A stretch of 64,000 nt of DNA, taken from Edaphocola flava. Its GTDB lineage: Bacteria; Bacteroidota; Bacteroidia; Chitinophagales; Chitinophagaceae. Positions 2,034 to 48,594 of the stretch are shown piece after piece. Both the position numbers and the translations under genes were made by a program. The DNA is taken from the NCBI RefSeq assembly GCF_004118155.1, contig NZ_SAIQ01000003.1, positions 1-64,000 of the forward strand, in the 5' to 3' direction. The notes below the pieces were generated by a model, which saw nothing but the letters and a program-made list of their open reading frames with translations, was not told the DNA's origin and made no database searches. The first letter of the stretch is position 1; each line of letters opens with the position of its first letter.

Positions 2034-3853
2034 TCAGCACCTTCCTCATCCTTATGGAAATATTCATATACGACACGGGCTTTAGAAGCACCGATCGTTA
2101 AAGTCAGTTCTCTTTGGGTCATCTGTTTGATCTTCGCTACAGAACGATAGCGTTGTAATAGGGTAGTAGCGGTCTGCGCACCGATACCCGGTATATCCTC
2201 CAGTTCATTCTTGATCGTGCCTTTGCTGCGCACATCACGGTGAAAGGTAATCCCGAAACGGTGCACCTCATCCCGCACACGGCGGATCAGCAACAGGCTT
2301 TTACCATTGTACGGTAATTGCAGTGGATCACTATCGCCGGGATAGAAAATGCTCTCTTCCCTTTTAGCCAGGCCCACGATCGTCATTTTACCGACCAGTC
2401 CCAGCGCACTGATGCTCTCCATAGCCGCACTCAGCTGGCCTTTACCACCATCTATAATGACTAACTGTGGCAGCGGTTTCCCTTCCTTGATCAGGCGGGA
2501 ATAGCGCCTATGCACAATCTCAGCCATAGAGGCAAAGTCATTAATACCCTCAACCGTTTTAATATGAAAATGGCGATATTCTTTTTTATACGGCATACCC
2601 TCCTTAAAACAAACCATAGCGGCAACCGGGAAGCTGCCCTGGAAGTTAGAGTTATCGAAACATTCGATATGCACGGGCACCTCCTTCAGTTTCAGGTCAT
2701 GCTGTAACTGTACCAGGGTATCATTCATATCCTTTGTCGCCGCCTTATCCAGGTTCAGCCTGGTTTTCAGCTCCGACTGGCGCATATGCTCCTCTGCATT
2801 TTTATAACTCAGGTCCAGCAGTTTCTTCTTATCACCCAGCAATGGCAGGGTTTGGACCAGATCCGATTCCTCAGTCTGTATCTCAAAGGGCAGGATAATC
2901 TCCTTAGCCTGAGACTGGAATCGCGGACGCAGGAAGGCAATAGCGTAAGATAATAATTCTTCGGCAGTCTCCTCCAGTTTCTTCTCGATCTGCAGGCTTT
3001 TGCTTTGTACAATACTACCTTCTGCCACCACCATATAATTGACATAAGCCAGTCCGCCATGCTCTACAATACTGGCCACATCCAGGTTGCCCAGTCTGGT
3101 ATTCACCACAGAAGATTTGGTCTGGAAGCCTTGCAGGATATCGATCGTCTCTTTGGTATGCTGTGCCTTTTCAAAAGCCATCTGCTCTGCTTCTTCAGCC
3201 ATCTGCTGGCGTAAGCTACTCAACACGCCACTGATATTCCCTTTGACAATCTGCTTTACCTGCTGCACATCATTCTGATAATCGTCCAGGCTTTGCAAAC
3301 CCTCGCAGGGCGCCTTACAATTGCCCAAGTGGTATTCCAGGCATTTTTTAAACTTACCTTTCTTAATATTCTCCGGGCTCAGGTTAAGGCTGCAGGTACG
3401 CAGCGGAAAACGACGCTTCACCAGGTCCATCAGTGTATAGATCTGGCTGACCGAAGTATATGGCCCCAGGTATTCCGATCCATCTTTAGTAAATCTGCGG
3501 GTCAGGAATACACGCGGAAATGATTCATTCTTGATGGTGATGTACGGATACGTTTTATCATCCTTAAGGCTGATATTGTATGGCGGCTTGAAATGCTTGA
3601 TCAGCGAGTTTTCCAGCAGGAACGCATCATGCTCATCATTCGTCACCGTCCACTCTACATGCACAATCTGGTTGACCAGCGTATGGGTCTTTACATTATC
3701 GATCTTTTTGACAAAATAAGAACTGACCCTTTTTTTCAGGTTCTTGGCCTTACCTACATACAACAGCTTCTTCCCGGCATCGTAATAACGATACACACCG
3801 GGAGCATGCGGCAGCATAGGAGATATTTCAGCCTGGAATTGTTCTTTATTCAT
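2030..3853 (-). CDS. uvrC: UvrABC excinuclease subunit C
   Basis: UvrC makes the 3' and 5' incisions around bulky DNA lesions after UvrAB loading. The 607 residues match the family length. An N-terminal GIY-YIG nuclease domain is visible (GVYRYYD at 19-25, LLYVGKA at 30-36), then a Cys-rich region (CLEYHLGNCKAPCEG near 170), a UVR coiled coil near 205-240, the RNase H-like nuclease domain with ECFDNSNFQG near 398, and a C-terminal helix-hairpin-helix pair (DIPGIGAQTATTLL). It lies 15 bp after pepE on the same strand. It is the last gene of an apparent MFS-pepE-uvrC run. Confidence 0.97.
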   Translation of the reverse strand: MNKEQFQAEISPMLPHAPGVYRYYDAGKKLLYVGKAKNLKKRVSSYFVKKIDNVKTHTLVNQIVHVEWTVTNDEHDAFLLENSLIKHFKPPYNISLKDDKTYPYITIKNESFPRVFLTRRFTKDGSEYLGPYTSVSQIYTLMDLVKRRFPLRTCSLNLSPENIKKGKFKKCLEYHLGNCKAPCEGLQSLDDYQNDVQQVKQIVKGNISGVLSSLRQQMAEEAEQMAFEKAQHTKETIDILQGFQTKSSVVNTRLGNLDVASIVEHGGLAYVNYMVVAEGSIVQSKSLQIEKKLEETAEELLSYAIAFLRPRFQSQAKEIILPFEIQTEESDLVQTLPLLGDKKKLLDLSYKNAEEHMRQSELKTRLNLDKAATKDMNDTLVQLQHDLKLKEVPVHIECFDNSNFQGSFPVAAMVCFKEGMPYKKEYRHFHIKTVEGINDFASMAEIVHRRYSRLIKEGKPLPQLVIIDGGKGQLSAAMESISALGLVGKMTIVGLAKREESIFYPGDSDPLQLPYNGKSLLLIRRVRDEVHRFGITFHRDVRSKGTIKNELEDIPGIGAQTATTLLQRYRSVAKIKQMTQRELTLTIGASKARVVYEYFHKDEEGAD

Positions 3854-3868
3854 CGGATCATGTAATGC

Positions 3869-4570
3869 TTAAAAGGAAAGTACCGTACCGGCAGCCACCT
3901 CATAAGGAGCTTTACCAGCTTCAAAAATGCGGGTTTGTTCAGAACCCTCTGTAGTGACCTGATCGCCTGTAACCCTGATCCAGTTACCTTCTCTGAGGCC
4001 TACAACCGGAATAGTATTCTGGGTATGAAACTCCTTGATACGAGTTTCGCGGGTCTCACCATTATGTTTCAGATCCGGATTCGGGTCCAGGTAGTGCGGG
4101 TTCAGGTTAAAGGGAACCAGTCCCATGGTTTCAAAGCTAGGCGGATACACAATCGGCATATCATTGGTCGTTTGCATATTGATACCACCTATATTACTGC
4201 CTGCACTGGAACCCAGATAAGGCTTTCCGCTGCTGACTGCTGCTGACAGTTCGGTCATTAATCCCTGCTCATGCAGTTGTTTCACCAGCAGGAAGGTGTT
4301 TCCGCCACCGGTAAAAAAACCCTTAGCTTCCTGTATGGCTTGTTTCGGATCGGCAAAGGTATGCAACCCTTTTACGTTAATACCAATACCGGCAAAGTAT
4401 GTCGCTGCAATCGCGGTGTATTCATCATGTGAAATACCACCCGGGCGGGCATAAGGGACAAATATGATGGAGTCAATACCTTTGAATAAGTCTTTGATCT
4501 GCTCTTTGATATACGCCAGGTATTCGCCTCCAAATAAAGTGGAGGTACTGGCCAGGATAATATTCTTCAT
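3869..4570 (-). CDS. pepE: Dipeptidase E (peptidase S51)
   Basis: PepE is a cytoplasmic serine peptidase that cleaves Asp-X dipeptides. The conventional start MKNIILASTST at 4570 is preferred over an ATG 30 bp upstream because family members begin there, giving 233 residues, the usual length. The glycine loop FTGGGNTF (near 87-92) and the nucleophile elbow GSSAGSN (Ser at about 122) are intact. It lies 15 bp upstream of uvrC and 65 bp downstream of the MFS gene, so co-transcription is likely although the functions are unrelated. Confidence 0.93.
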   Translation of the reverse strand: MKNIILASTSTLFGGEYLAYIKEQIKDLFKGIDSIIFVPYARPGGISHDEYTAIAATYFAGIGINVKGLHTFADPKQAIQEAKGFFTGGGNTFLLVKQLHEQGLMTELSAAVSSGKPYLGSSAGSNIGGINMQTTNDMPIVYPPSFETMGLVPFNLNPHYLDPNPDLKHNGETRETRIKEFHTQNTIPVVGLREGNWIRVTGDQVTTEGSEQTRIFEAGKAPYEVAAGTVLSF

Positions 4571-4635
4571 GTATGCAATAATATCCTGCAAAAGTAGCAA
4601 ATCTGCGGCTTTTGTCCGGCTGCTTTGGAGAATAT

Positions 4636-5880
4636 TTAAGATACCTGTGGCGCCGCTTTGGGCTTACCATACAGGAGATGACTGATAAATACCAGTGCCG
4701 TAAAAAATGTACCCACCAGCACTACACCCGGCCACTGCCAGGCACGCCAGGCCTGTGCTGCCAAATAAGTACCCAACGAGCCACCTATGAAATAGCTGAA
4801 CATATACACAGTATTCAAACGGTTGCCGGCCGCCAGCCTTAAAGCAAAGAAGCTGGACTGGTTCATAATATGCATCGACTGCAGGCCCATATCGATCAGG
4901 ATAATGCCGATAATGAGTCCGATATATGTATAACCACCAAAGTAAAAAATGACCCAGCTGATAAGCATAATTAGTATAGCGTACAGCACAATCTGGAATG
5001 GACGTACCTTATTCGCGATCTTACCAACAATAGCGGCAGCCAGTGCCCCTACAGCACCAATCATACCAAAAGAACCCGCTACTGCTGCACCGGCATGAAA
5101 GGGCTCCTCTTCCAGGTGAAATACCAATGTGGTCCAGAAAGCACTGAATGCCGCAAATCCGGCACCACCACGGAATGCAGCCAGTCTTAATACCGGCTGT
5201 GTTTTGGTCAGGTGTACCAGTGAGCGCATCAGTTCCCGGTAAGTACCCTTAAAGGAAGGATGCACTTCCGGCAATTTAAGGGCCAATACCAGGGCCAATA
5301 CGCCCATACAGCCCGCAGCAATGTAGAACATAGCCTTCCAGCCCCAGAGATCACCTACAATACCACTGATTACCCTTGATAATAATATCCCTATCAGCAG
5401 TCCGCTCATTACCATACCTATAGAGGCACTCTGCTTTTCTTTCGTCGCCAGTTCTGCCGCCATAGGTACAAATAACTGCGGCACGACAGAGGTAAACCCG
5501 ATGAGGAAACTGATTGGAATCAGCCAATGTATAGACGGGGCAATGGTCATGCCCAGCAGGGACAGAATGATAAATATGAAATCAATCAGGATAAGGCGCT
5601 TACGGCGCAGCATATCGCCGAGTGGTACAATCAGTAATAAACCCATGGCATATCCGATCTGGGTAAACATAGCAATATTACTCACCTTCGCCTCACTTAC
5701 CCCCATATCTTTAGCAATCAGGCCCAGTAAGGGTTGATTATAATAATTATTGGCAACCACCAATCCGCTGGCAATGGTCATCAGCCATAAGACAGAACGG
5801 GTAAGGGCCGGACGGGCAGGCATTTCGCCGGTTACAGATGTGTTTCCTACAGGATCAGATACAGTTTGTTCGGGATTCAT
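4636..5880 (-). CDS. MFS transporter
   Basis: A 414-residue inner-membrane carrier with about 12 hydrophobic segments and a central cytoplasmic loop. The loop 2-3 motif A appears as PLGDMLRRKRLILI near residue 95. The N-terminal sequence (GLVVANNYYNQPLL) is typical of the YgaY/NepI-like drug:proton antiporter group in Bacteroidota. Substrate unknown, and sugar or drug efflux are equally possible from sequence alone. It heads the minus-strand run that continues into pepE and uvrC. The 244-bp region upstream also contains the divergent riboswitch of the fluoride transporter gene. Confidence 0.88.
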   Translation of the reverse strand: MNPEQTVSDPVGNTSVTGEMPARPALTRSVLWLMTIASGLVVANNYYNQPLLGLIAKDMGVSEAKVSNIAMFTQIGYAMGLLLIVPLGDMLRRKRLILIDFIFIILSLLGMTIAPSIHWLIPISFLIGFTSVVPQLFVPMAAELATKEKQSASIGMVMSGLLIGILLSRVISGIVGDLWGWKAMFYIAAGCMGVLALVLALKLPEVHPSFKGTYRELMRSLVHLTKTQPVLRLAAFRGGAGFAAFSAFWTTLVFHLEEEPFHAGAAVAGSFGMIGAVGALAAAIVGKIANKVRPFQIVLYAILIMLISWVIFYFGGYTYIGLIIGIILIDMGLQSMHIMNQSSFFALRLAAGNRLNTVYMFSYFIGGSLGTYLAAQAWRAWQWPGVVLVGTFFTALVFISHLLYGKPKAAPQVS

Positions 5881-6018
5881 ATGATTCAGAAAAGAGCAGG
5901 GCAGGTATTATCCTGCAAAACAACAGGATTAATAGCAATGTCGTATAGATGAAAAGCAATTTTGGTAATAAATTAACCTACTGCCACCACCGTGAGGGCA
6001 AATTTAATCAGGAATATG

Positions 6019-6026
6019 TATCTTTG
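6019..6026 (+). promoter_or_regulatory. Promoter -7 box of the fluoride transporter leader
   Basis: TATCTTTG is an exact match to the Bacteroidota -7 consensus TAnnTTTG. It places the transcript start near 6032, immediately before the fluoride aptamer. No convincing TTTG -33 box is seen at the usual 19-21 bp spacing. Confidence 0.6.
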
Positions 6027-6033
6027 CCCTACA

Positions 6034-6122
6034 AAAGGAAATGGTGTGCTTCCTTACCCAACCGCTTGCAAAAGCTGATGACGCCTGATTATATATCAAT
6101 ATTTACCTTATAATCAGGATTG
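6034..6122 (+). promoter_or_regulatory. Fluoride riboswitch (crcB motif) with translational expression platform
   Basis: The leader folds as the fluoride aptamer. Helix P1 pairs AAGGAA (6035-6040) with TTCCTT (6050-6055). The loop GGTGT (6043-6047) can form the pseudoknot with ACGCC (6081-6085). Helix GCTT/AAGC (6064-6067, 6072-6075) is capped by a GCAA tetraloop and followed by the conserved UGAUG (6076-6080). Order and motifs match the known Thermotoga petrophila aptamer. Directly overlapping the pseudoknot strand is a perfect 10-bp hairpin (6084-6093 with 6109-6118) whose 3' arm holds the AGGA upstream of the ATG at 6125. Fluoride binding should prevent this hairpin and turn translation on. 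Fold inferred by eye. Confidence 0.86.
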
Positions 6123-6124
6123 TT

Positions 6125-7441
6125 ATGCCCGTACCACAACACCAGACTACCGCCAGTTTCTCCCGTAATATTTACATACGATTCCGTTTATTGTTCCGCA
6201 AGTATCCGCTTATGCCATACCTGTTCAGATGGGTGCTGATCTGTCTGATCCTTGGTTTACTCATTGGTTCCGCCTCTGCCTTCTTCCTGCAAACCCTGCA
6301 ATGGGCCACAGCATTCCGGGAGGAGCATAGCTGGATTTTATTTCTGCTGCCGGTCGGTGGTTTCCTGGTCGGATGGGCATATGACCGCTATGGAAAAAGT
6401 ATAGTAAGCGGCAATAATCTGCTGATCGATACTATACTGGAGCCCGGCAAAACGATCCCGTTTAAAATGGCACCTATGGTATATGCCGGTACCATTATCA
6501 CCCATTTACTCGGTGGCTCCGCAGGACGTGAGGGCACCGCATTGCAAATGGCCGGTGCAATAGCCGATCAGCTGCACAAGCCATTTAAATTATCCAAAGA
6601 AGATCGTAGCACATTGCTGATTGCCGCAGTAGCAGCGGGTTTTGGCAGTGTTTTCGGCACACCGCTGGCCGGCGCATTATTCGGTATAGAGTTTTTTCTG
6701 TTGGGTCGCCTGCGCTACCAGTCATTGTTTCCCGCGGTGATGGCTGCTATACTGGCCGACCTGGTCACCCGCGCCTGGGGCGTACCGCATACGCATTACC
6801 CGATCGGCATCGTGCCGGCTTTATCGTTTAGTCATCTCATTTTTGTGCTTATTGCCGGCATCCTGTTTGGCTGGTGTGCCGCGCTGTTCAGCAAATGCAT
6901 GGAGTATTGCAGTACCAGCTTCAGAAAATATATTGCATACCCACCTTTTCGCCCGGTGGCGGGAGGTTTACTCATCCTGTTATTTGTATGGCTCTCTGGT
7001 ACTACAAAGTACTCCGGGCTGGGTATTCCGGCCATTGTATCCGCATTTGACACCACCGCAATGCCCTATGATTTTGCCTTGAAAATGCTGCTGACCGTCA
7101 TTACCTTATCTGCCGGATTTAAGGGTGGGGAAGTAACGCCTCTATTCTTCATCGGGGCCACATTAGGTAGTGCCTTAGCGTTTATTATACCCTTGCCGCA
7201 TGCATTGCTGGCGGGTATGGGCTTTGTTGCTGTATTTGCAGGAGCGACCAATACACCATTGGCCTGTACGATGATGGGCATTGAATTATTCGGTATGGAA
7301 TGTGGCGTATATATTGCGCTGGCCTGTGTTGTAGCCTATTTATGCTCAGGCAATAACAGCATATATAGCAGTCAACAGATCGACACTCCGAAACATCGTC
7401 GTTTCGGTCACCTCAGGGGCAAAAGAATGCAGGATCTGTAA
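6125..7441 (+). CDS. CLC-F type fluoride/proton antiporter (ClC family)
   Basis: A 438-residue ClC-fold membrane protein with many transmembrane helices. The filter sequences are those of the fluoride clade rather than chloride channels: GNNLLI replaces GSGIP near 96-101, GREGT (134-138, gating Glu136) replaces GREGP, and GGEVTPLF (334-341) carries the Val-Thr pair described for the Enterococcus CLC-F. Such proteins export toxic F- using inward H+ movement. The fluoride riboswitch upstream independently supports this function. It ends 3 bp before the convergent LytTR gene. The family assignment is firm; fluoride specificity rests on motif and riboswitch. Confidence 0.92.
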   Translation: MPVPQHQTTASFSRNIYIRFRLLFRKYPLMPYLFRWVLICLILGLLIGSASAFFLQTLQWATAFREEHSWILFLLPVGGFLVGWAYDRYGKSIVSGNNLLIDTILEPGKTIPFKMAPMVYAGTIITHLLGGSAGREGTALQMAGAIADQLHKPFKLSKEDRSTLLIAAVAAGFGSVFGTPLAGALFGIEFFLLGRLRYQSLFPAVMAAILADLVTRAWGVPHTHYPIGIVPALSFSHLIFVLIAGILFGWCAALFSKCMEYCSTSFRKYIAYPPFRPVAGGLLILLFVWLSGTTKYSGLGIPAIVSAFDTTAMPYDFALKMLLTVITLSAGFKGGEVTPLFFIGATLGSALAFIIPLPHALLAGMGFVAVFAGATNTPLACTMMGIELFGMECGVYIALACVVAYLCSGNNSIYSSQQIDTPKHRRFGHLRGKRMQDL

Positions 7442-7444
7442 ACT

Positions 7445-8206
7445 TTATTTATTATTGGCGTGCTTTTTTAAGTCTGCCATACTCAGCCTGCTGTTTTCGA
7501 TACGTTCCGTACCAAAATATATCGCTTCCGGGTCAAATGAGGTCATGTACTGCAGGTTCACACAGCAACTACGGTTCACCTGTACAAATGAGGCCTGCAG
7601 GCTTAAGGGGAGTAATTGTGTGCGCACAAAGGTTAGTGATCCCCTGATCGAATACTGGAATTGCACCTGTGCAGATTTTACTTTTACATAATTCTTACCC
7701 GCCTCCAGGCAGTAAATATCTTTCCAGAAAAACTTATTAGTCTTATGTCCTACCTTCACAAAGAAGTAATCGGGGCGGGTATCTTCCTGCTGATCGGATT
7801 CCGGCACCTTCTGTTGCAGATTACTGTTTTCGATAGCCGTTTGTATAGCTGCAAATAAGGTTGCAGAACCTGCCGGTTTGATCAGGTATCCCTGCGGCTT
7901 CTGGCGGGTGGCCGCCCTGATCGTGTTCAGATCATTATAGGCCGTAAGGTAAATAAAAGGAATATTGGGCCTGGTATCCTGGATAATGCCCCCTAATGCA
8001 ATCCCGTTCTTCCACTCCTCTGCCTCCTCAAGGTTTATATCCAGCAGGATCAGATCGGCTTCAGTATGGGCAATAAGATCTCTGGCCTCATCAAAATGAT
8101 AGCAGATACCACTCACATAATAGCCCAGATCCTCGAGGCTATACTTAAGGTGCTCCGCAATAAGGGCATCGTCTTCAATAATCAGAATGTTGATCTTATT
8201 TTCCAT
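7445..8206 (-). CDS. LytTR-family response regulator
   Basis: A 253-residue two-component regulator. Residues 1-125 form a CheY-like receiver with acidic pocket EDD near 11-13, phospho-acceptor Asp in LILLDINL, Thr in YLTAYND and Lys in LIKPAG. The C-terminal LytTR DNA-binding domain begins near FFVKVGHKTNKF. The start MENKINILIIEDD at 8206 is chosen because it begins right before the receiver; it overlaps the kinase gene by 11 bp, indicating translational coupling. The kinase-regulator pair is presumably cognate. Its target genes cannot be read from the sequence. Confidence 0.92.
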   Translation of the reverse strand: MENKINILIIEDDALIAEHLKYSLEDLGYYVSGICYHFDEARDLIAHTEADLILLDINLEEAEEWKNGIALGGIIQDTRPNIPFIYLTAYNDLNTIRAATRQKPQGYLIKPAGSATLFAAIQTAIENSNLQQKVPESDQQEDTRPDYFFVKVGHKTNKFFWKDIYCLEAGKNYVKVKSAQVQFQYSIRGSLTFVRTQLLPLSLQASFVQVNRSCCVNLQYMTSFDPEAIYFGTERIENSRLSMADLKKHANNK

Positions 8207-9887
8207 TGGGACAAATGATGGTGTATTGATAAGGATGCTCCGGATGGCGCAATACCTGGGCATGCAATTGCCTGCTCAGCAAAACTACGATTTCTGTGCC
8301 CAGTCCCGGCGGAGCATCTGCATTATGTGCATCTACAGAACCATTATCGGCATACCGGATCTCCAGCTGATCTTCCAGTACACGGAAGGCTACGGTTAGG
8401 TGCAGTGGTTCATTTCCGGTATCGGCATACTTTATCGAGTTAATGATCCATTCGTTCAATATCAGTGTCAGGGGCAATTGCTTTTTCTTAGGCAATCCTA
8501 TATGATCGGTACCGCTCACACTGACCGTTACCGGTTTACTGATAAAATAACAATTCACTACTGCTTGTACCAGTGCCTCTATAAAAGATTTAAAGTCCAC
8601 CGCCTGTTCATGACTACCGATCCGCTGATGCAGATCTGAGATGCTCTGCACCCGCAAGCGGGCTTCCTGCAGGTCTCTTACCGTCTCCTCATTCTGGCTT
8701 CTGCGCTCCTGCATCTGTAGCAGGCTCACAATCATCAGCAGGTTATTCTTAACCCGGTGCTGCATTTCCTTATTCAGCAGTGCAACATTGCCAATCTGCT
8801 GGTCCAGGTCTTCATTGGTACGGCTCAGTTTGGCAGAAAGCGCACGGTATTTTTTCACATTTTTATAGAGAAATATACTCAGCACTGTGATGGACAGAAA
8901 GCCGATCATAAACACCACAAAGCCCATCTCCTTCCATTGCTGCATGGTCTGTTCATACTGGATCTGCCGCCTTTCCGCATCCAGTTCCGATTTGGCCAGA
9001 TCATGCTCCAGCGCTTCCAGGGCCTTACCCTGGTTCAATTCTACGGTAAAATTATATTCTGCCAGCAGATAAGTATAGGCCTTGGTCGTATCCTTAACGG
9101 TACGATACAGCTGTACCAGGTTTGTAGCCAGGAAGGCACGGTCAAAACCTGTTGTGGTGCGGGCATACGCTTGTTCCAGAGAATCAAGATAGGGCGACCG
9201 CACCTTACCGTAATGATACACATCAATGCGGGAACGGGTCAGATAATAATTATCCAGGTAATTATAGGTATCCGGATCATTACGTATCCAGCTCCTTTTA
9301 AATAGATTGTTCAATATACTATCAGCCAGTGCATAATTGCGCACCTCGCTACTGATCAGGGCCATCTGGGAGATATAGCCTTGCTGCTTCCGGAACGCAG
9401 TATCCTTGATCAGCAGTGTATCGTACAGGTTCCTTAATATTTCCACCGCGTGCACACTATCATTGATCTTATCATAAGCATGCGCTACCAGCTGCTGTAC
9501 ATACAGATAGCGGGAGTATTGATCTGGAAGTTTACCAAATAAAGCCGCAGCTTCTTTAAAATAATGGATGGTACGCTGAGGTTCTTTATTCCAGGCATCG
9601 TAGATACGGCCTTTGGCAAACAGGGCTTCTGCCTTTAACCTGGCATTATGGGATTGTTCTGCGATAATCTGCGCACTATCGTAGTATTTCAGACTATGAG
9701 CGAAGGTGGTATAATTCTTTTTCTGTGCATATACACTGTCTCCTTTATGTAAGAGGACAAAAAATACAGCCTCCTGCTGCTGCAGACTCATTGCCGCTTT
9801 ATCTTCCCGAGTACAGGAAAACAATCCTGAAACAAGCGACCAGGAAAACAGGAAACAGAGAATAATATGACCGTATTGTTTACGCAT
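8196..9887 (-). CDS. TPR-containing sensor histidine kinase (HisKA_2 type)
   Basis: A 563-residue membrane sensor kinase. An N-terminal signal with a lipoprotein-like Cys (GLFSCTRE near 25) leads into a periplasmic helical repeat region of TPR character (about residues 35-300). One transmembrane helix follows (MGFVVFMIGFLSITVLSIFL, near 318), then the cytoplasmic kinase with phospho-acceptor His in NKEMQHRVKNNLLMIVSLLQ and an HATPase domain (ILNEWIINSIKYA; PPGLGTEIV). This layout is standard for Bacteroidota LytTR-paired kinases. A TACATTTG -7 box on the minus strand at 9899-9906 would give a leader of only a few nucleotides. Confidence 0.9.
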   Translation of the reverse strand: MRKQYGHIILCFLFSWSLVSGLFSCTREDKAAMSLQQQEAVFFVLLHKGDSVYAQKKNYTTFAHSLKYYDSAQIIAEQSHNARLKAEALFAKGRIYDAWNKEPQRTIHYFKEAAALFGKLPDQYSRYLYVQQLVAHAYDKINDSVHAVEILRNLYDTLLIKDTAFRKQQGYISQMALISSEVRNYALADSILNNLFKRSWIRNDPDTYNYLDNYYLTRSRIDVYHYGKVRSPYLDSLEQAYARTTTGFDRAFLATNLVQLYRTVKDTTKAYTYLLAEYNFTVELNQGKALEALEHDLAKSELDAERRQIQYEQTMQQWKEMGFVVFMIGFLSITVLSIFLYKNVKKYRALSAKLSRTNEDLDQQIGNVALLNKEMQHRVKNNLLMIVSLLQMQERRSQNEETVRDLQEARLRVQSISDLHQRIGSHEQAVDFKSFIEALVQAVVNCYFISKPVTVSVSGTDHIGLPKKKQLPLTLILNEWIINSIKYADTGNEPLHLTVAFRVLEDQLEIRYADNGSVDAHNADAPPGLGTEIVVLLSRQLHAQVLRHPEHPYQYTIICPNGK

Positions 9888-10161: not shown

Positions 10162-10185
10162 ATAATACGCAATTAATAATCGCTA

Positions 10186-10244
10186 ACTGAGTATCCGCTT
10201 AAAGGAAACAAAGTCTAGTATTATATTTTAGGCATTCTATTTAT
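10186..10244 (+). repeat. MITE-like repeat, copy 1, left part
   Basis: Begins with the family's left end ACTGAGTATCCGC and runs to CTATTTAT, where the IS1595-family transposon inserted. The sequence continues at 14464 after the duplicated CTATTTAT, as comparison with the intact copy at 30546 shows. Confidence 0.88.
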
Positions 10245-10267
10245 GGCATTAATATACGACTTTACAC
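10245..10267 (+). repeat. Left terminal inverted repeat of the IS1595-type transposon
   Basis: GGCATTAATATACGAC and the following bases match the right end in inverse orientation at about 18 of 23 positions. It abuts the CTATTTAT target duplication. Confidence 0.88.
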
Positions 10268-10319
10268 TTAAGTCTCTTTGTTGTTAATTAATTTTGTTAT
10301 TTTCGGATTAAAAATCCTT

Positions 10320-10511
10320 ATGGCTAAGTTTATTAAAGTTACCTCTATATCTGGTTTGACTGAATACAATTTAAATGTAGAATATATTGTATTTTACTAT
10401 CCTTTAATTCAGTCAAAAACTACATCAATTTTACTTTCTACAGGTAGAGATTTAGAAGTATCCGATAATATATCTGAATTTGAAGCAAAACTTAATGCTG
10501 TCTCATTGTGA
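10320..10511 (+). CDS. Small FlbD-like hypothetical protein (transposon cargo)
   Basis: A 63-residue protein beginning MAKFIKVTSIS; the ATG at 10320 is preferred to an upstream in-frame ATG that would add an unrelated hydrophobic leader. The pattern (IKVT...YNLNVEYIV, a STGRDLEV strand, ISEFEAKL helix) resembles small FlbD-like and phage/ICE proteins that turn 'local sequence + threshold' into a compact beta sheet. That likeness is weak and no function is claimed. It is the first cargo gene after the left transposon end. Confidence 0.5.
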   Translation: MAKFIKVTSISGLTEYNLNVEYIVFYYPLIQSKTTSILLSTGRDLEVSDNISEFEAKLNAVSL

Positions 10512-10641
10512 ATTTTCTAACTTTCCAAAAAGGAATTCCTAGAAAATACCATATTGTAATAGTGTTTTGATCACTATATACAGATCCGTCATATGGTACA
10601 TGTATAATTTTCTTAGTAATCATAATTTTTTAAGTTTAAGT

Positions 10642-10670
10642 AGGTAGTCATTTGACTACCTTATTTTTTT
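10642..10670 (+). terminator. Rho-independent terminator after the small cargo gene
   Basis: AGGTAGTCA (10642-10650) pairs with TGACTACCT (10653-10661) and is followed by a run of T. The 130 bp between the stop codon at 10511 and this hairpin holds nothing recognisable. Confidence 0.72.
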
Positions 10671-10751
10671 CAAATCCTTTACTATACCGTATTTCCGGGT
10701 TTATCAACTTCATGTGCATATCTCGTTAATGATAAATCGCATGTAAAAAAT

Positions 10752-10759
10752 TATCTTTG
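10752..10759 (+). promoter_or_regulatory. Promoter -7 box of leader/attenuator region
   Basis: TATCTTTG fits TAnnTTTG exactly. Transcription would begin near 10765, 11 nt before the leader peptide start. No clear -33 box is seen. Confidence 0.5.
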
Positions 10760-10775
10760 TGTACAAGTTACGAAT

Positions 10776-10820
10776 ATGTTTTTTTGGTTATATAAAGTTG
10801 GTTTCGTATACTTATCTTAG
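10776..10820 (+). CDS. Putative 14-residue leader peptide
   Basis: ATG at 10776 and TAG at 10818-10820 enclose MFFWLYKVGFVYLS, in which six of 14 residues are aromatic. The stop codon touches the first base of the long antiterminator arm (10820-10834). The position between a promoter box and a terminator, plus the unusual composition, suggests a regulatory leader rather than a functional protein. This is inference from layout alone; no ribosome-binding sequence supports the start. Confidence 0.35.
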   Translation: MFFWLYKVGFVYLS

Positions 10821-10970
10821 AGGTTTAAATATTGCTGTAATTGTTAAAAGTTTGCATTTTAATAAATGCAATTGTACATTTGCAAATGCAAATTCATCGC
10901 AGGATTGTTAGATCAAACACTGCTAAAAGATGAACAATATTTAAACCTCAGCGGCAACTGAGGTTTTTTT
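10820..10970 (+). promoter_or_regulatory. Candidate antiterminator/terminator pair or structured RNA
   Basis: GAGGTTTAAATATTG (10820-10834) is perfectly complementary to 10935-10949. The distal arm overlaps the 5' side of a clear terminator, AACCTCAG (10944-10951) with CTGAGGTT (10958-10965) plus seven T. The two folds exclude each other. A further hairpin, TTGCATTT/AAATGCAA (10852-10859, 10864-10871), lies inside. Downstream is the 55-residue zinc-ribbon gene at 11047. It could be an attenuator for that gene or a free small RNA; the sequence alone does not decide. Confidence 0.5.
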
Positions 10971-11046
10971 GTTTTTATACAATAAAGTTTTTGGTCGAAA
11001 CAGAACGTTCCTGAAATTCTGATTATTAAACCCAAAATTTATAGCG

Positions 11047-11214
11047 ATGAATTTGCATCACAAGCCAGAATTTTGTTCCAAATGCAGCAATGCAATGAAA
11101 GAAGTTTTTATCCCTTGGAAAAGAGGTAAAAATGGAGTTAGGATTTATCCAAAAAATTCGAGATACTTCCACTTCTTTGTTTGCGAGAATCCAACCTGCA
11201 AACAGAACAAATAA
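11047..11214 (+). CDS. Small zinc-ribbon protein, 55 residues (transposon cargo)
   Basis: The frame encodes 55 residues with two cysteine pairs: FCSKC near residues 9-13 and VCENPTC near 45-51, spaced as in a small treble-clef or zinc-ribbon fold. A basic stretch (PWKRGKNGVRIYPKNSRY) lies between. Such proteins often bind nucleic acid or act as adaptors. The gene is followed by a strong terminator and preceded by the attenuator-like region. No named family is recognised. It is too short for most automatic gene calls. Confidence 0.62.
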   Translation: MNLHHKPEFCSKCSNAMKEVFIPWKRGKNGVRIYPKNSRYFHFFVCENPTCKQNK

Positions 11215-11236
11215 GAGCTAAAATCTAAGGATTTAT

Positions 11237-11259
11237 GAGGGGTTGCCGCCCCTCTTTTT
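11237..11259 (+). terminator. Rho-independent terminator after the zinc-ribbon gene
   Basis: GAGGGG (11237-11242) pairs with CCCCTC (11249-11254) and is followed by five T. It also separates the gene from the convergent minus-strand gene, whose stop codon is at 11258-11260. Confidence 0.85.
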
Positions 11260-11509
11260 ATTTCTTTGGTTTACCTTTTTTAAAGATACCTACAAGTACA
11301 TCGTCAAAACCAATTAATGGTCTTGCAGGTGCACTCATTTTAATGTTTCTGCTAAGTTTTCTTAAATGGAGTTTTTTGAATTCTTGCCAAGTTTCAGATA
11401 CTTCAAGAATACCTAATAATTTAAGAATCTCTTCATCAGATTTAAATGTCTTGAAGTATTCTTCTTCTCCATTAAGTCGTTTAACTTCTTTTGCTAATCT
11501 CTGATCCAT
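11258..11509 (-). CDS. Small hypothetical protein linked to the transposase
   Basis: An 83-residue basic protein: an N-terminal charged helical part (KEVKRLNGEEEYFKTF) and a C-terminal tail FDDVLVGIFKKGKPKK, which resembles the short 'F..al..ll..p..k' tails found on small proteins that accompany Bacteroidota IS1595 transposases. Its start overlaps the transposase stop by 29 bp, so translation is probably coupled. It may assist or regulate transposition. No function is proven. Confidence 0.6.
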   Translation of the reverse strand: MDQRLAKEVKRLNGEEEYFKTFKSDEEILKLLGILEVSETWQEFKKLHLRKLSRNIKMSAPARPLIGFDDVLVGIFKKGKPKK

Positions 11510-12497
11510 AAACTAAGGTTTGGTAAGTTAATCTCTTACCTGAAATACCTTGTAAAAATAAGTCTATTTTCTCGCTTAAAATACTCATTCTATTGTTAAA
11601 GCGGAAGGATCTCTCATTTAAGTACATTTGCAAGTGCTTTCTAGACACTTTATAATAAACACCTATTATTGATCTTTTTAAGTGACTCCAGTAATTTTCA
11701 ATCCTGTTAGTGGTTATATCTCCATCGGCATATTGTCCTCTACCATGATCAATAAACTCATGTTTATAATGTTTACTTAAACCCGCGTAACCCATCCACT
11801 CATCTGTAAGTAATCTACTTCCTCCTTTTATGTTTTGAAGAATTAACGGTTGTAACGTTTTTACTTTGGTATCTTCTACAACAAAGGTTTTAACTTTAGT
11901 AGGTCTGATAGTCACCTTTTCAATAACATACTCTCCATCTATTACCTTGTGAGGTCTTCTAACTAATTTGTATTCTCCTCTTTTAAGTAAGCCTACTACT
12001 GGTGTTTTATCTTTGAAGGATCTACCTTGAGACTTTTCAACTTTTTTGTCTTTGTGTCGGTTCTTATTTTTGCCTCCTACGAACGATTCGTCTGATTCAA
12101 TCTCTCCATCAAACTCATCATCTTCAGGGTCAATTGCAAATCTTAACCTTGCCAGTATAAACCATGCTGTTTTCTGAGTAACTCCTAATTCGTCTGCTAA
12201 CTGATAAGAAGAAATACCTCTTTTATTAACTATGAAAAGGTATATGGCTACAAACCATGTTCTAAATTCGATTTTAGATCCTTCAAAGATGCTATCTGTT
12301 CTTACTGTAAAATACTTCTTGGTGTTTACACAGCGGTATCTGTTACCTGCACATTTATAGACTTTGGAATCTTCATCGAAAGGAGAAACGATATTTCCGT
12401 TCCATCTCAGCATTTCAAGGTGATCAATACAGCTTTGTTCTGTGGGGAAAGCCTCCAGAAGTTGTTTAACACTCTTGTATGGTTTTACTGAGATCAT
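11481..12497 (-). CDS. IS1595-family (ISXO2-like) transposase
   Basis: The 338-residue enzyme moves the surrounding 4.2-kb element by DDE chemistry. The start MISVKPYKS at 12497 is favoured; longer frames add an unrelated hydrophobic leader. An N-terminal half-zinc-ribbon region (YKCAGNRYRCVNTKKYF) has lost some cysteines, as in many Bacteroidota members. A helix-turn-helix follows (QLADELGVTQKTAWFIL). Catalytic residues are visible as Asp136 in ESDESFVGG, Asp232 in LLTDEWMGY and the NRIENYWSHLKR block (Glu267). It appears intact. The transposase is divergent from the 150-residue cargo gene. Confidence 0.93.
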   Translation of the reverse strand: MISVKPYKSVKQLLEAFPTEQSCIDHLEMLRWNGNIVSPFDEDSKVYKCAGNRYRCVNTKKYFTVRTDSIFEGSKIEFRTWFVAIYLFIVNKRGISSYQLADELGVTQKTAWFILARLRFAIDPEDDEFDGEIESDESFVGGKNKNRHKDKKVEKSQGRSFKDKTPVVGLLKRGEYKLVRRPHKVIDGEYVIEKVTIRPTKVKTFVVEDTKVKTLQPLILQNIKGGSRLLTDEWMGYAGLSKHYKHEFIDHGRGQYADGDITTNRIENYWSHLKRSIIGVYYKVSRKHLQMYLNERSFRFNNRMSILSEKIDLFLQGISGKRLTYQTLVYGSEISKRS

Positions 12498-12560
12498 TAC
12501 AATACAAATATAAGTAGAAAAGTACATTAGAAGTGTAAATAAATACTTAAATTTGTTATT

Positions 12561-13013
12561 ATGATAGAACATTTACAAAAACTAGACTTTGTCCTTGACT
12601 ATTTTAAAAAGAAAAAAGAGTTCAGTGCCACATACAATTATTCATTAATTGAAACATATGTTAAAAGGACTCCAGAAATGAATATCACTACACTTATACT
12701 CAAGGAAATTTTAGAAAAATTGGTATCTGATGGTTATCTAACAAAAACTGAAAAACCTACAGGATTATCTTATTATAATATATCCTTTAAAGGGTTGGTT
12801 TTCGAGGGTTACGTCTTGGTATATACATTATCCCAAAAGGAAATACAAAGAGTGAATATGTTAGAGCAGGAACAAAGGGCTTTGGCTTATTCACAAAATC
12901 AGGTGGCTGAAAAGACAAAAAATCTGACTGTGTGGGTGGCAATTGGGACAATAATTGCGGCTGTTTATTATCTTCTTGAGATTTGGAAGTTCTTTTTTGA
13001 AAAAGATTCCTGA
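12561..13013 (+). CDS. Winged-helix-like protein with C-terminal membrane anchor (cargo)
   Basis: A 150-residue protein. Residues 1-75 look like a winged-helix fold (ETYVKRTPEMNITTLILKEI, then LEKLVSDGYLTKTE and a YNISFKG wing). A short linker coiled coil (LEQEQRALAYSQNQVAEKTK) leads to one C-terminal transmembrane helix (VAIGTIIAAVYYLLEIW). It resembles other membrane-tethered winged-helix proteins of unknown function common in Bacteroidota. It starts 63 bp from the transposase start on the opposite strand, so the two may share an operator region. Function unknown. Confidence 0.62.
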   Translation: MIEHLQKLDFVLDYFKKKKEFSATYNYSLIETYVKRTPEMNITTLILKEILEKLVSDGYLTKTEKPTGLSYYNISFKGLVFEGYVLVYTLSQKEIQRVNMLEQEQRALAYSQNQVAEKTKNLTVWVAIGTIIAAVYYLLEIWKFFFEKDS

Positions 13014-13140
13014 TCACCTTAAACAGTGCATCCCTAAATTTCATAAATTTGTGATTCATTGAAAAATCATTTTGAATTTGAATAAATAAAAGAAAATTTA
13101 CATATAAATACTTGTATCATATCATAGCTGACTACTCTAA

Positions 13141-13297
13141 ACTGCGACCTTAGATAACAAAGCCAATGCAGGATATGACTTAGATACGCCTATAAAGGTG
13201 TAACTCAGTCTTTGCATTGGTTGGATGTCGCAGTCCATGAGTGGTGAAGATACTGGTTACACCTAATTTTTTACAATCACTCATAAAAACTGCGACA
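13141..13297 (+). promoter_or_regulatory. Structured switch-like leader before the cargo lipoprotein
   Basis: A long nested hairpin can form: CTGCGAC 13142-13148 with GTCGCAG 13227-13233, CCAATGCA 13163-13170 with TGCATTGG 13213-13220, GACT 13177-13180 with AGTC 13207-13210, and ACGCC 13186-13190 with GGTGT 13197-13201. A second ACTGCGAC copy at 13289-13296, two bases before the ATG at 13299, can compete for the same partner. AGGTGTAAC (13196-13204) can also pair with GTTACACCT (13256-13264). The segment therefore has alternative folds, one covering the start codon. Upstream of 13141, from the stop codon at 13013, nothing recognisable is present. Confidence 0.48.
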
Positions 13298-13298
13298 A

Positions 13299-13790
13299 AT
13301 GACAAAACTCTTACCCTTAATTCTTCTACTATTCCTATTCTCTTGTCAGAATGGAAACACACAATCTCAAAAGAAACTCTACACTGAAGAAGAACTCCAA
13401 CGAGCGATCCTAAAAGCTAAAGATGAACAACAGAAAGTTGATGAGACAGCCGAAGCGGTTGCATCTGCTGCAAGAGCTACAATGGAACCTACAACAACCA
13501 TAACTCCAGCACCTCAAACCTACTATGTATTTGCAGCATTGGTAGTTTCTTTTGGTATAGGGGAAGAAAACTATCAGGTTTTGACAACTGAAATAATTGA
13601 ACGCACCCATAAACCCACTAGAGACGAAGAATATAAGATTCTTGATGACTTAACAAGTTCTCCTGATGTTCAAGCCAATAGTAGAGTTTATAAAAACTTC
13701 AAAACTCATAAACGTAAAGTCTATTCATTTAATTCATATGCAGACGCTAGTGAAAAACGTCAAGAAGTATTATCTAAAGGAATTCAATAA
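13299..13790 (+). CDS. Hypothetical lipoprotein (transposon cargo)
   Basis: A 163-residue protein with a 15-residue hydrophobic signal and lipobox LFSC at Cys16, so it should be anchored in the envelope. A charged helical stretch (EEELQRAILKAKDEQQKVDE) and a Thr/Pro-rich linker precede a C-terminal globular part. That part resembles the short alpha/beta pattern of small phage/ICE exclusion-type proteins, but no homologue can be named. It lies 25 bp upstream of the 102-residue gene. The start codon sits two bases after a possible RNA-pairing site. Confidence 0.58.
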   Translation: MTKLLPLILLLFLFSCQNGNTQSQKKLYTEEELQRAILKAKDEQQKVDETAEAVASAARATMEPTTTITPAPQTYYVFAALVVSFGIGEENYQVLTTEIIERTHKPTRDEEYKILDDLTSSPDVQANSRVYKNFKTHKRKVYSFNSYADASEKRQEVLSKGIQ

Positions 13791-13815
13791 ATTTAACCTT
13801 TAAAACCACTATAAA

Positions 13816-14124
13816 ATGGATCAAAACTTAAACCATGAGGTACTGAAAGTACTAGAAGATAATGGTATATTCCGTGCGAATAAGCCTGTAATGGGTGGAT
13901 ACATTATTTCATTTAAAGATAACCTGATAAACGTAACTGTAGGCCCTAACATCTACAAATATCAAATATCTGAGTTATTAGATTCAGATGAATACATAAA
14001 TATCATTCCAAAAGACCCTACTTTCACAAAGAATATTAAAGTTGAGATTGAATATCTAAAACCTGTTTACATAAGACGGGATTCATCAATGCTTCACATA
14101 GATGGTTATATTATTCTGAAGTAA
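13816..14124 (+). CDS. Hypothetical protein, 102 residues (transposon cargo)
   Basis: A soluble-looking protein with alternating beta-like segments (GGYIISFKDNLINVTV, KVEIEYLKPVYI) and no signal, membrane segment or known motif. It follows the lipoprotein gene by 25 bp on the same strand and probably shares its transcript. Its end overlaps the convergent small gene by 14 bp. Function unknown. Confidence 0.5.
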   Translation: MDQNLNHEVLKVLEDNGIFRANKPVMGGYIISFKDNLINVTVGPNIYKYQISELLDSDEYINIIPKDPTFTKNIKVEIEYLKPVYIRRDSSMLHIDGYIILK

Positions 14125-14362
14125 AAGGTAGAAATCCAGAATCTCTAAAATTCGTCACCCCTATTCTTAGTAGGTTTTCATAAAATTTTATAGAATTATT
14201 GACACTATCCCTGAAAGGCTTCATTCCTGGACTATCATTATTATCTATCTCATTTAATGATAAAATGAGTAAATCGTAGGGATGATTTTTATTGTAGTTC
14301 TCTAAAAGTTCTACAATTTGTGTTGCTACCTTATAGGCTTCTTGAATGGAATCCTTATTCAC
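14111..14362 (-). CDS. Hypothetical protein, about 83 residues (transposon cargo)
   Basis: The frame extends back to a GTG at 14386 that sits inside a terminator hairpin. The GTG at 14360-14362 is preferred because an AAGGAGG sequence (14368-14374) lies 5 nt upstream, an unusually strong Shine-Dalgarno for this phylum. The 83-residue product is helical and acidic (SIQEAYKVATQIVELLENYNKN), ending LPFTSE. It overlaps the convergent 102-residue gene by 14 bp. No family recognised; it might be non-coding. Confidence 0.42.
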   Translation of the reverse strand: MNKDSIQEAYKVATQIVELLENYNKNHPYDLLILSLNEIDNNDSPGMKPFRDSVNNSIKFYENLLRIGVTNFRDSGFLPFTSE

Positions 14363-14377
14363 AACAACCTCCTTTCC

Positions 14378-14402
14378 AAAGACCACTTATTGTGGTCTTT
14401 TT
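14378..14402. terminator. Bidirectional hairpin near the transposon right end
   Basis: AAAGACCAC (14378-14386) and GTGGTCTTT (14392-14400) form a perfect 9-bp stem with A and T flanks, so it could stop transcription from either side, including read-through out of the element. Confidence 0.7.
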
Positions 14403-14440
14403 GTTTTTGTTCACAAAATTTTTGAAAAGAATTGGCTCTG

Positions 14441-14463
14441 ATGTAAGATTGTATATTAGTGCC
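14441..14463 (-). repeat. Right terminal inverted repeat of the IS1595-type transposon
   Basis: Read inward from 14463 it begins GGCACTAATATACAAT and matches the left end at 18 of 23 positions. The CTATTTAT duplicate follows at 14464-14471. Confidence 0.88.
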
Positions 14464-14892
14464 CTATTTATATCTATTGGTACCTTTTGCCTTGATGCAA
14501 AAGGGTACCGCCAAAAAATCAAGGCTGTATACATCCCTGGCTAAAAATCAATGTGTCGGTCGGTCGCAAACGCAGACTCGCTGCGCTCAGACAGTGGTTT
14601 ACGACTTTATCGACCGAGCCAATGATTTTTGTAACGCCGGATTTATAAGGACATTCTAAGCGATCTGTTCTGTACGGATCGCTTATTGTTTTCATCACAG
14701 CGATAGCCATTTTGGTTGGAGCTGCGGATCGTTGAGCACCCAACGCATCACACGTTAAGCTCAGACGATCAAGGCACGCAACGGTACAAAATGGCGGTGC
14801 TATGCAATCGCCTTGATGAAATATCATTTTTGCACCTTTTGTTGCCGGACAAAAGGACGAATAAAATAGTTGCCTACATGCGGATAGTCAGT
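14464..14892 (+). repeat. MITE-like repeat, copy 1, right part
   Basis: Continuation of the repeat interrupted at 10244, starting with the duplicated CTATTTAT and ending at the right inverted end GCGGATAGTCAGT. Internal dyads include a TACCTTTTG/CAAAAGGGTA-type hairpin and a CCTTTTG/CAAAAGG hairpin near the right end. No matching target duplication remains (AATCGCTA on the left, AAATTTTA on the right). The 155 bp from 14893 to the Crp gene contain nothing else evident. Confidence 0.88.
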
Positions 14893-30537: not shown

Positions 30538-30545
30538 TATTATTA

Positions 30546-31060
30546 ACTGAGTATGCGCTTAAAGGAAACAAAGATTAGCATTATGATTTAGGCATTCTAT
30601 TTATATCTATTGGTACCTTTTGCCTTGATGCAAAAGGTACCGCCAAAAAATCAAGGCTGTATAAATCCATGGCTAAAAATCAATGTGTCGGTCGGTCGCA
30701 AACCAGACTCACTGCGTTCAGACAGTGGTTTGCAACTCTATCGACCGAGCCAATGATTTTATGAACGCCGGATTTATAAGGCCATTTCGAGCGATCTGTA
30801 CAGTACGGATCGCTTATTGTTTTCTAAGCTAGCGCACGCGCCCTCGCGTGTGCCGGTTTGGGAACGCGCGCCAGAGAAGAGCTTCAGCAACCGAAAGTTT
30901 CGTACCCTGAGGTCCTCGAAGGGTAAGCTCAGACGATCAATGCACGCAACGGTACAAAATGGCGGTGCCTTGCAATCGCCTTGATGAAATATCATTTTTG
31001 CACCTTTTGTTGCCGGACAATAGGACAAACAAGATAGTTTACTATATACGGATAGTCAGT
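30546..31060 (+). repeat. MITE-like repeat, copy 2 (intact, with target duplication)
   Basis: The 515-bp element has left end ACTGAGTATGCGC and right end CGGATAGTCAGT (inverse ACTGACTATCCG), flanked by the perfect 8-bp direct repeat TATTATTA (30538-30545 and 31061-31068). Internal dyads include a 12-bp stem GGTACCTTTTGC/GCAAAAGGTACC (30612-30641) and a second complex hairpin in the right half. No transposase is encoded. A stretch near 30830-30920 differs from the other copies (an extra GC-rich segment). Confidence 0.93.
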
Positions 31061-39395: not shown

Positions 39396-39404
39396 ATGTA
39401 ATTA

Positions 39405-39700
39405 ACGGAGCATCCGCTTAAAGGAAACAAAGCCTAACGTTATGTTTTAGGTATGCTAATTATATCTATTGTTACCTTTTGCCTTGATGCAAAAGATAAC
39501 GCCAAAAAATCAAGGCTGTATAAATCCCTGGCTAAAAATCAAGGTGGTCGGTCGGTCGCAAACCAAACTCACTTCGTTCAGACAATGGTTTCCGACTGAA
39601 TCGACCGAGCCAATGATTTTCTTGACGCCGGATTTATAAGGCCATCATAAGCGATCTGTTCTGTACGGATCACTTGCCTGTTTCATCATAGCAAAGCAAT
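39405..39700 (+). repeat. MITE-like repeat, copy 3 (right half missing)
   Basis: Starts with the left end ACGGAGCATCCGC and follows the family through the large left dyad and the GCGATCTGT...ACGGATC palindrome, then diverges near 39700. The right end is absent, probably by deletion next to the dinB gene. Confidence 0.82.
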
Positions 39701-48127: not shown

Positions 48128-48594
48128 ACTGAGTATACGTTTAAAAGAAACAAAGTCTAGCATTATGCTTAGAAATTCTTTTTATATCTATTGCTACCTT
48201 TTGCCTTGATGCAAAAGGTACCGCCAAAAAATCAAGGCTGTATAAATCCCTGGCTAAAAATCAAGGTGTCGGTCGGTCGCAAACCAGACTCACTTCGCTC
48301 AGACAGTGGTTTCCGAATTATCGACCGAGCCAATGATTTTCTTGACGCCGGATTTATAAGGCCATTCTAAGCGATCTGTACTTGTACGGATCGCTTATTG
48401 TTTTCATCACAGCGATAGCCATTTTGGAGTGGAGCAGCGAACGCATCACACGTTAAGCTCAGACGATCAATGCACGCAACGGTACAAAATGGCGGTGCAC
48501 CGCAATCGCCTTGATGAAAACAAAGGCATTTTTGGTCCTTTTGTTGCCGGACAAAAGGACGAACAAAATAGGCTACTACATGCAAATAGTCATA
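48128..48594 (+). repeat. MITE-like repeat, copy 4
   Basis: Nearly full-length: left end ACTGAGTATACGT, right end ATAGTCATA (slightly altered). The flanks TTTTTTAC (48120-48127) and TTTTTTAT (48595-48602) agree at 7 of 8 positions, consistent with a decayed target duplication. Strong dyads occur in both halves, e.g. GTCCTTTTG/CAAAAGGAC near 48537-48560. No protein is encoded, although spurious frames occur. Confidence 0.9.

Follow-up and report, generated by a model that had tools for sequence, protein, structure and literature searches.

A candidate RNA switch at the head of the cargo operon of an IS1595-family transposon in Edaphocola flava

The first 64,000 nucleotides of contig NZ_SAIQ01000003.1 of Edaphocola flava (Chitinophagaceae; we call this whole stretch the window) contain, at 10245-14463, a complete IS1595-family transposon of 4219 bp, in which terminal inverted repeats (TIRs), an exact 8-bp target-site duplication (TSD) and a transposase gene are all present. 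The TIRs, located by an inverted-repeat search and a TIR/TSD test, are 22 nt each and begin with GG (GGCATTAATATACGACTTTACA at 10245-10266, plus strand, and GGCACTAATATACAATCTTACA at 14442-14463, minus strand), and are flanked by the unstranded copies of the duplication CTATTTAT at 10237-10244 and 14464-14471, both recognised by sequence match and the left one also from empty sites. When the stretch was compared by BLAST with its own genome, the flanks proved to be the two halves of a dispersed repeat, which at about 26 other places (counted by hand) are adjacent and uninterrupted, with up to 8 bp of overlap, so that the target can be seen both filled and empty. The coordinates that a first-pass annotation, made from the sequence alone, had given for a transposon are exact. 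GC content falls from about 0.45 outside to about 0.30 within the element. The dispersed repeat, about 100 bp long, occurs dozens of times in the genome. One copy (10185-10244 plus 14464-14500) holds the transposon, and others lie in the window at 30544-30633, 39403-39492 and 48128-48214.

The transposase (337 aa from the ATG used, 11481-12494, minus strand, in an open reading frame (ORF) that stays open to 12572) matches NF033547 of NCBIfam at 190 bits, where the cut-off is 75, and PF12762 at 3e-41. A search for its relatives in IMG/VR gave no match, and a search of a set of genome contigs gave one close relative, in a Taibaiella metagenome-assembled genome (locus L039) that carries the whole element at 2864-6739 with perfect TIRs and an 8-bp TSD. 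The transposase side is the same in the two elements (transposase 86% identical, a partner ORF, and a small ORF beginning MITKKI), whereas the cargo-side genes differ. The only long stretch that they have in common on the cargo side is 13039-13318 (81.5% identity), which is non-coding and ends at the first cargo start codon.

This stretch comprises a conserved promoter-like part upstream of the cargo operon (13039-13111, plus strand, as aligned with L039) and, at 13112-13301 on the same strand, a structured leader RNA that folding, covariation and alignments suggest to be bistable, and that closes with the start codon of the first cargo gene, encoding a 163-aa lipoprotein (13299-13790, plus strand). 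The folding z of the leader is -6.3; in Rfam 15 it had no match above any gathering threshold, and permissive scans returned only names far below gathering scores. From its 5' side, all on the plus strand, the alignments define a competitor strand at 13132-13148, made up of CTACTC (P1a), TAAA and CTGCGAC (A5, 13142-13148), followed over 13162-13221 by helix P2 (13162-13170 with 13213-13221) and the apical helix P3 (13185-13190 with 13197-13202). According to a test of alternative pairs, strand B' (GGTGTAAC, 13197-13204) pairs either locally, in P3, or with 13256-13263, in a pseudoknot. Pairing tests identify at 13223-13236 the motif GGA-T-GTCGCAG-TCC, in which a mini-stem of 3 bp encloses the central strand A' (13227-13233), and the alignment of relatives places B3 (GTTACACC) and then a T tract (13267-13272) at 13256-13272. 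Finally, a repeat test finds at 13290-13296 the strand A3, CTGCGAC, a second copy of A5 that lies 2 nt ahead of the ATG at 13299. The strands follow one another as A5, B5, B', A', B3, A3; A' has complements in both A5 and A3, and B' in both B5 and B3.

Both sets of pairs are conserved. In an alignment of nine relatives there are 31 consensus pairs, 18 of them with compensatory changes, and in the alternative set (A':A3 plus the pseudoknot B':B3) 15 of 15 pairs are formed at 100% in the nine sequences, with 13 compensatory cells, as opposed to 24-56% paired when the partners are slid. In a larger alignment of 75 sequences, which was fitted to the covariance model and so favours the structure, 96.7% of cells are paired versus 31-42% when slid, compensatory changes affect 27 of the 31 pairs (629 cells), and covariation is 0.726 compared with 0.210 in shuffles. 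The A strand itself varies widely (CTGCGAC, CTACGAC, ATACGAC, TTACCAC, TAACCAC, TCTTCCA, CCGACCA, CGTCCAA and more) and its partners follow. The mini-stem around A', of the form GGN/NCC, has its third pair in 64 of 65 scorable cases (shuffled mean 54, maximum 58), and because A' is framed in this way it may be presented as a loop. In 40 of the 75 RNAs the A3 repeat is 8 nt or longer, while swapping partners gives 6.8 (maximum 13) and shuffling 1.75 (maximum 7), and wherever the distance was measured (17 RNAs out of 17) A3 lies 1-5 nt ahead of the ATG. The two states differ little in nested energy, by -1.4 kcal/mol on average with a standard deviation of 4.3 over 17 RNAs. Covariation and dual pairing argue for selection on the leader RNA itself. 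A reading at the level of DNA, either as invertible DNA or as an attC-like single-stranded structure, was set aside because G-U pairs are frequent in the conserved helices.

While the RNA stays, the gene behind it changes: it encodes a lipoprotein in the window, an unrelated secreted protein of 132 aa in L039, and others again in L043, L049 and L072. Another IS1595 element, L164, which has TIRs and an exact TSD, carries an RNA-led lipoprotein that shares 45% identity with that of the window. By a hydropathy rule, 18 of 19 RNA-led ORFs (17 IS1595 loci plus L128 and L129) are secreted, lipoprotein or membrane proteins, versus 11 of 53 other, hand-listed cargo ORFs (p=1.3e-8). The rule flags 42 of 57 RNA-led ORFs in a held-out set of 60 places (three of them without an ORF), and for held-out ORFs of at least 60 aa the envelope class accounts for 41 of 55, versus 148 of 430 in the background (p=1.6e-8); five further held-out ORFs were read by eye as having signal peptides. 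Pfam matches among 76 RNA-led proteins include EGF_TEN (6), collagen (5), LytTR (2), RDD (2) and Por_Secre_tail (2), with single matches to Acyl_transf_3, DnaJ, Imm_superinfect, AIPR, subtilase, ResIII and others. Weak matches to TraT (L041, 0.002) and Leukocidin (L126, 0.0065) fell below curated cut-offs and were not used. The commonest named RNA-led proteins are EGF-like or collagen-like, a predominance that points to the surface rather than to defence. "Envelope" is thus the property that RNA-led genes mostly share.

The RNA is not confined to one kind of element. Covariance-model matches were obtained in 49 of 394 genomes of the family (84 places), 11 of 298 of the order and 3 of 395 in a sample of the phylum, the three draws overlapping; the held-out set consists of the 60 of these 84 places that were previously unseen, at E up to about 1e-8. 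A BLAST search of the 394 family genomes with the RNA gave hits in 16 at E<=0.01, of which four were deemed credible, and the leader as a DNA query had no match among plasmids and INPHARED phages. TIRs and an 8-bp TSD enclose both the RNA and a transposase gene in 16 of 18 tested loci that have both (L042 with one TSD mismatch), and none were found to do so in L079 and L103; L049, at a contig end, was omitted from this test. In the held-out set a transposase gene is in the stretch for 20 places and the RNA is bounded by TIRs and TSD in 16. A bounded architecture scan scored 51-69 at the RNA in 15 of 15 elements, these having been chosen for bearing it, while any match at all was found in 32 of 300 shuffled elements (10.7%, best 59.5) and in 4 of 13 RNA-less elements (none above 50). 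Starting from the transposase instead, about 52 distinct loci were found in 33 of 147 genomes (fragments merged by hand).

A transposase gene is in the fetched stretch for 33 of the 75 aligned RNAs. IS1595 is a main carrier of the leader RNA, but not its sole one. No TIRs and TSD were found around the transposase-less RNAs of L128, L129 and L131-L134, which gives no support to non-autonomous IS1595 copies. In L128 the RNA is part of an integrase-type element with OLD-AAA and UvrD genes alongside; it is near HsdM in L132, near a C5 methylase in L138 and beside a phage-type integrase in L237; L238, where it precedes an EcoRI-type methylase, is on a contig with what we read as a terminase-like ORF. 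Matches in L131-L134, L235, L238 and L244 reach only 34-53 bits and by eye have no A3. Pattern scans of viral contigs, which fix A5 and A' by construction, gave 5+1+6 loci; the RNA model upholds four of the twelve. On the viral contig L244 (2166-2576, minus strand), the RNA fold occurs twice in tandem ahead of a 661-aa ORF, the two copies having different strands and no A3. Stable occurrence of the same genes outside such elements, which the first-pass annotation had counted against a module, was found in part: the RNA occurs outside IS1595 too, and so does the zinc-ribbon ORF described below.

Taken together, we think it somewhat better than even (a probability of roughly 55%) that this is an IS1595 transposon with passenger genes (a tIS, where IS stands for insertion sequence) in which a bistable leader at the head of the cargo operon gates envelope cargo, the switch probably being translational. 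In the first state A5:A' and B5:B' form a rod, which would leave free the strand that adjoins the start codon; in the second, A':A3 would sequester A3, 1-5 nt ahead of the ATG, and B':B3 could form a pseudoknot or kissing contact. We infer that the first state would permit, and the second block, translation of the first cargo gene. The gated product would be an envelope-directed protein, here the lipoprotein, that may be exchanged between elements while the RNA stays.

Several observations weigh against such a switch. For the window leader, a nested model in which the pseudoknot is uncounted favours the blocked state by 4.7 kcal/mol. The A3 repeat is absent in 35 of the 75 RNAs, and therefore sequestration of the start codon is not the function of the whole RNA family; its presence is, moreover, only weakly tied to IS1595 (p=0.06) and to envelope genes (p=0.07). 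Soluble RNA-led genes exist, since 15 of the 57 held-out ORFs are unflagged by the rule (about 10 after reading by eye), and the L238 RNA leads a phage methylase. There is also no general enrichment for defence genes among the 76 RNA-led proteins in PADLOC. Lastly, a T tract follows B3 in nearly all RNAs (0-3 nt after it in the relatives that we read, with T columns 192-195 conserved), and this fits a terminator coupled to the pseudoknot equally well.

It is possible, and to us the most serious competing explanation, that the leader is instead a pseudoknot-terminated small RNA or an attenuator, in which B':B3 and the T tract terminate, P3 acts as an antiterminator and A3 was acquired later by some of the RNAs. 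The lack of A3 in nearly half of the RNAs would agree with this, as would the viral L238 and L244, where P1 and P3 are recognisable by eye together with a pyrimidine-rich tail and a possible pseudoknot, but no A3. However, in the other half the A3 repeat is far above chance and keeps its place just ahead of the ATG, and envelope genes begin directly behind the RNA. One may also consider a ligand-binding riboswitch, with P2/P3 as aptamer and A'/A3 as expression platform, for which the anatomy and position are suitable and several near-invariant bases lie outside the counted helices (A16, A19, T123-126, GG142-143 and CC155-156 of alignment A4). We regard this as quite unlikely: GG142-143 and CC155-156 form the mini-stem, the divergent L051, L083 and L095 keep the architecture with little common core sequence, no extended invariant unpaired core was seen in the alignments, and the led genes have no common pathway. 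Very improbable is an ordinary tIS whose passenger genes follow no special logic, the RNA being the structured 5' untranslated region of a widespread lipoprotein operon caught by chance. In its favour, passenger genes are known in IS families (PMC7986276), 42 of the 75 aligned RNAs have no transposase gene in the fetched stretch, and cargo is also borne by 13 bounded IS1595 elements that lack the RNA. Against it, covariation and dual pairing require that the RNA itself be under selection, and the RNA turns up, with A sequences of many kinds, in 14 of the about 52 transposase-first loci (13 if the weak L103 is left out).

A bolder reading, which we consider unlikely, is that these RNAs form a new class of mobile-element RNAs, common to IS1595, integrative elements and phages from several groups of bacteria, that would act as self-matching three-strand-exchange switches, with a drifting recognition strand and co-varying copies giving each element its own "code", as in plasmid incompatibility RNAs, and that would silence envelope-acting exclusion or effector genes until a signal of infection or entry.

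Compared with known systems, the element shares with the IS1595 family (ISXO2-like DDE transposase; tIS) its transposase, TIRs starting with GG, an 8-bp TSD and passenger genes, but differs in having a conserved structured RNA at the head of its cargo operon. In a literature search on IS1595 passenger genes, riboswitches, structured RNA and Chitinophagaceae, covering mostly open-access work, no such RNA was found; a table of motif names is given in PMC2864571. Translational riboswitches and pseudoknot leaders such as SAM-II and preQ1-II are alike in having mutually exclusive helices, one of which reaches the start codon, and a pseudoknot, whereas here there is no match in Rfam 15, no fixed aptamer core was seen and there is no common metabolic regulon. 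Metastable mRNAs of the hok type and type I/III toxin-antitoxin RNAs likewise belong to mobile elements and combine competing folds or antisense segments with small proteins nearby, but the proteins led here, 33-797 aa in length, are for the most part secreted or located in the membrane, and the window has no ToxI-like tandem RNA repeats. If the proposed switch is correct, a widespread class of structured RNA is missing from Rfam 15 and transposons use RNA to gate the genes that they carry. The leader may also serve as a search handle that flags mobile envelope or exclusion genes invisible to protein profiles, and since the A, A' and B strands are resolved to the single base, compensatory mutants offer a direct test of the switch.

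The idea that the cargo is a defence, exclusion or regulation module fares unevenly: regulation fits the leader RNA, and for defence or exclusion there are only hints. PADLOC gave no convincing match for five window proteins (best SIR2, 0.006), and the lipoprotein too is without a defence match. Mobile superinfection-exclusion and defence cargo resembles the present system in L128, where the RNA-led ORF is Imm_superinfect (PF14373, 4.8e-17), and differs from it in that the window proteins have no such match. Non-led cargo of RNA-bearing elements includes PD-Lambda-2_B (L102, 4e-19) and PDC-M36A (L042, 3e-17), and AbiU matches one of the 76 RNA-led proteins, where PADLOC found single matches only. 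The L128 element (5038-9754), with its OLD-AAA and UvrD neighbours, is Gabija-like by content.

A second RNA is predicted at 10886-10970 (plus strand) from inverted-repeat and terminator scans, with a 5' segment ATGCAAATTCATCGC at 10886-10900 and a terminator that runs from 10943 to 10966-10970. It lies directly behind TACATTTG (10875-10882, plus strand), which we take to be its Bacteroidota -7-like box. The segment is exactly complementary to 11044-11058, and these 15 nt include the start codon of a 55-aa zinc-ribbon-like ORF (11047-11214, plus strand); the terminator stands between the two. This ORF was found in 9 of 294 genomes of the family. The complement is clear in four of the nine (the window, L224, and L226, L228 and L231; p 0 to 0.0025, with 0, 0.0025 and 0 for the last three, whose letters differ from those of the window), marginal in L227 (0.015), weak in L225 (0.15), and absent in L229, L230 and L232; in L226 the zinc-ribbon ORF also adjoins an IS1595 transposase gene. 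The small RNA probably represses its neighbour, holding that ORF down, with a cis-folding leader as the alternative reading. With both RNA devices, envelope cargo could travel on the transposon and stay silent until needed. Both of the switch-like RNA segments that the first-pass annotation had pointed out are supported, more strongly than it had claimed, and so is its view of an element more elaborate than a normal insertion sequence. The segment 10886-10900 also matches, with 0-1 mismatch, a stretch antisense to the transposase gene by position in L076, L107, L110 and L111, which may be chance, and a perfect 15-nt inverted repeat (10820-10834 / 10935-10949) surrounds the small-RNA promoter and overlaps the terminator stem, so that antitermination is conceivable.

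The remaining cargo consists mostly of orphan ORFs. An 83-aa ORF overlapping the transposase stop (11258-11509, minus strand) had been proposed as a partner of the transposase; it is one by position, with homologues in the same place in L039, L040 and L041. A 63-aa ORF (10320-10511, plus strand) had been called FlbD-like; it has no match in Pfam, NCBIfam or PHROG at E up to 1, 0.1 and 0.01, respectively, and no BLASTP alignment to the like-placed ORF of L096, and the FlbD identity (PF06289) was set aside as unsupported. A conserved 43-aa ORF (MITKKI...WYFLGIPFWK; 10492-10623, minus strand) had been overlooked, and has homologues in L039, L043 and L096 at E 3e-6 to 6e-5. For the 150-aa ORF at 12561-13013 (plus strand), described earlier as a membrane-anchored winged helix, hydropathy makes the C-terminal membrane helix probable, and single-sequence AlphaFold2 supports the fold weakly (H-E-H-H-E followed by a single long helix; pLDDT 70 and pTM 0.40, one of five models). 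Behind the lipoprotein gene lie an orphan ORF of 102 aa (13816-14124, plus strand; from the ORF list, with no profile match) and one of 91 aa (14111-14386, minus strand) whose coding status is doubtful, its start being inside the terminator of the cargo operon (14378-14400, plus strand). Terminators, earlier put at three, are indeed present, with a count of four distinct plus-strand stem-loops among eight matches, where shuffles give 1.4.

Matches to tRNAs (53-59 bits) adjoin the transposase gene in three IS1595 loci that bear the RNA, L043 (4808-4879), L103 (3885-3958) and L126 (4277-4348), in L043 and L126 within the bounds of the element. Elsewhere in the window, a fluoride riboswitch (RF01734, 48.5 bits) lies at 6028-6094 (plus strand), ahead of an ORF at 6125-7441.

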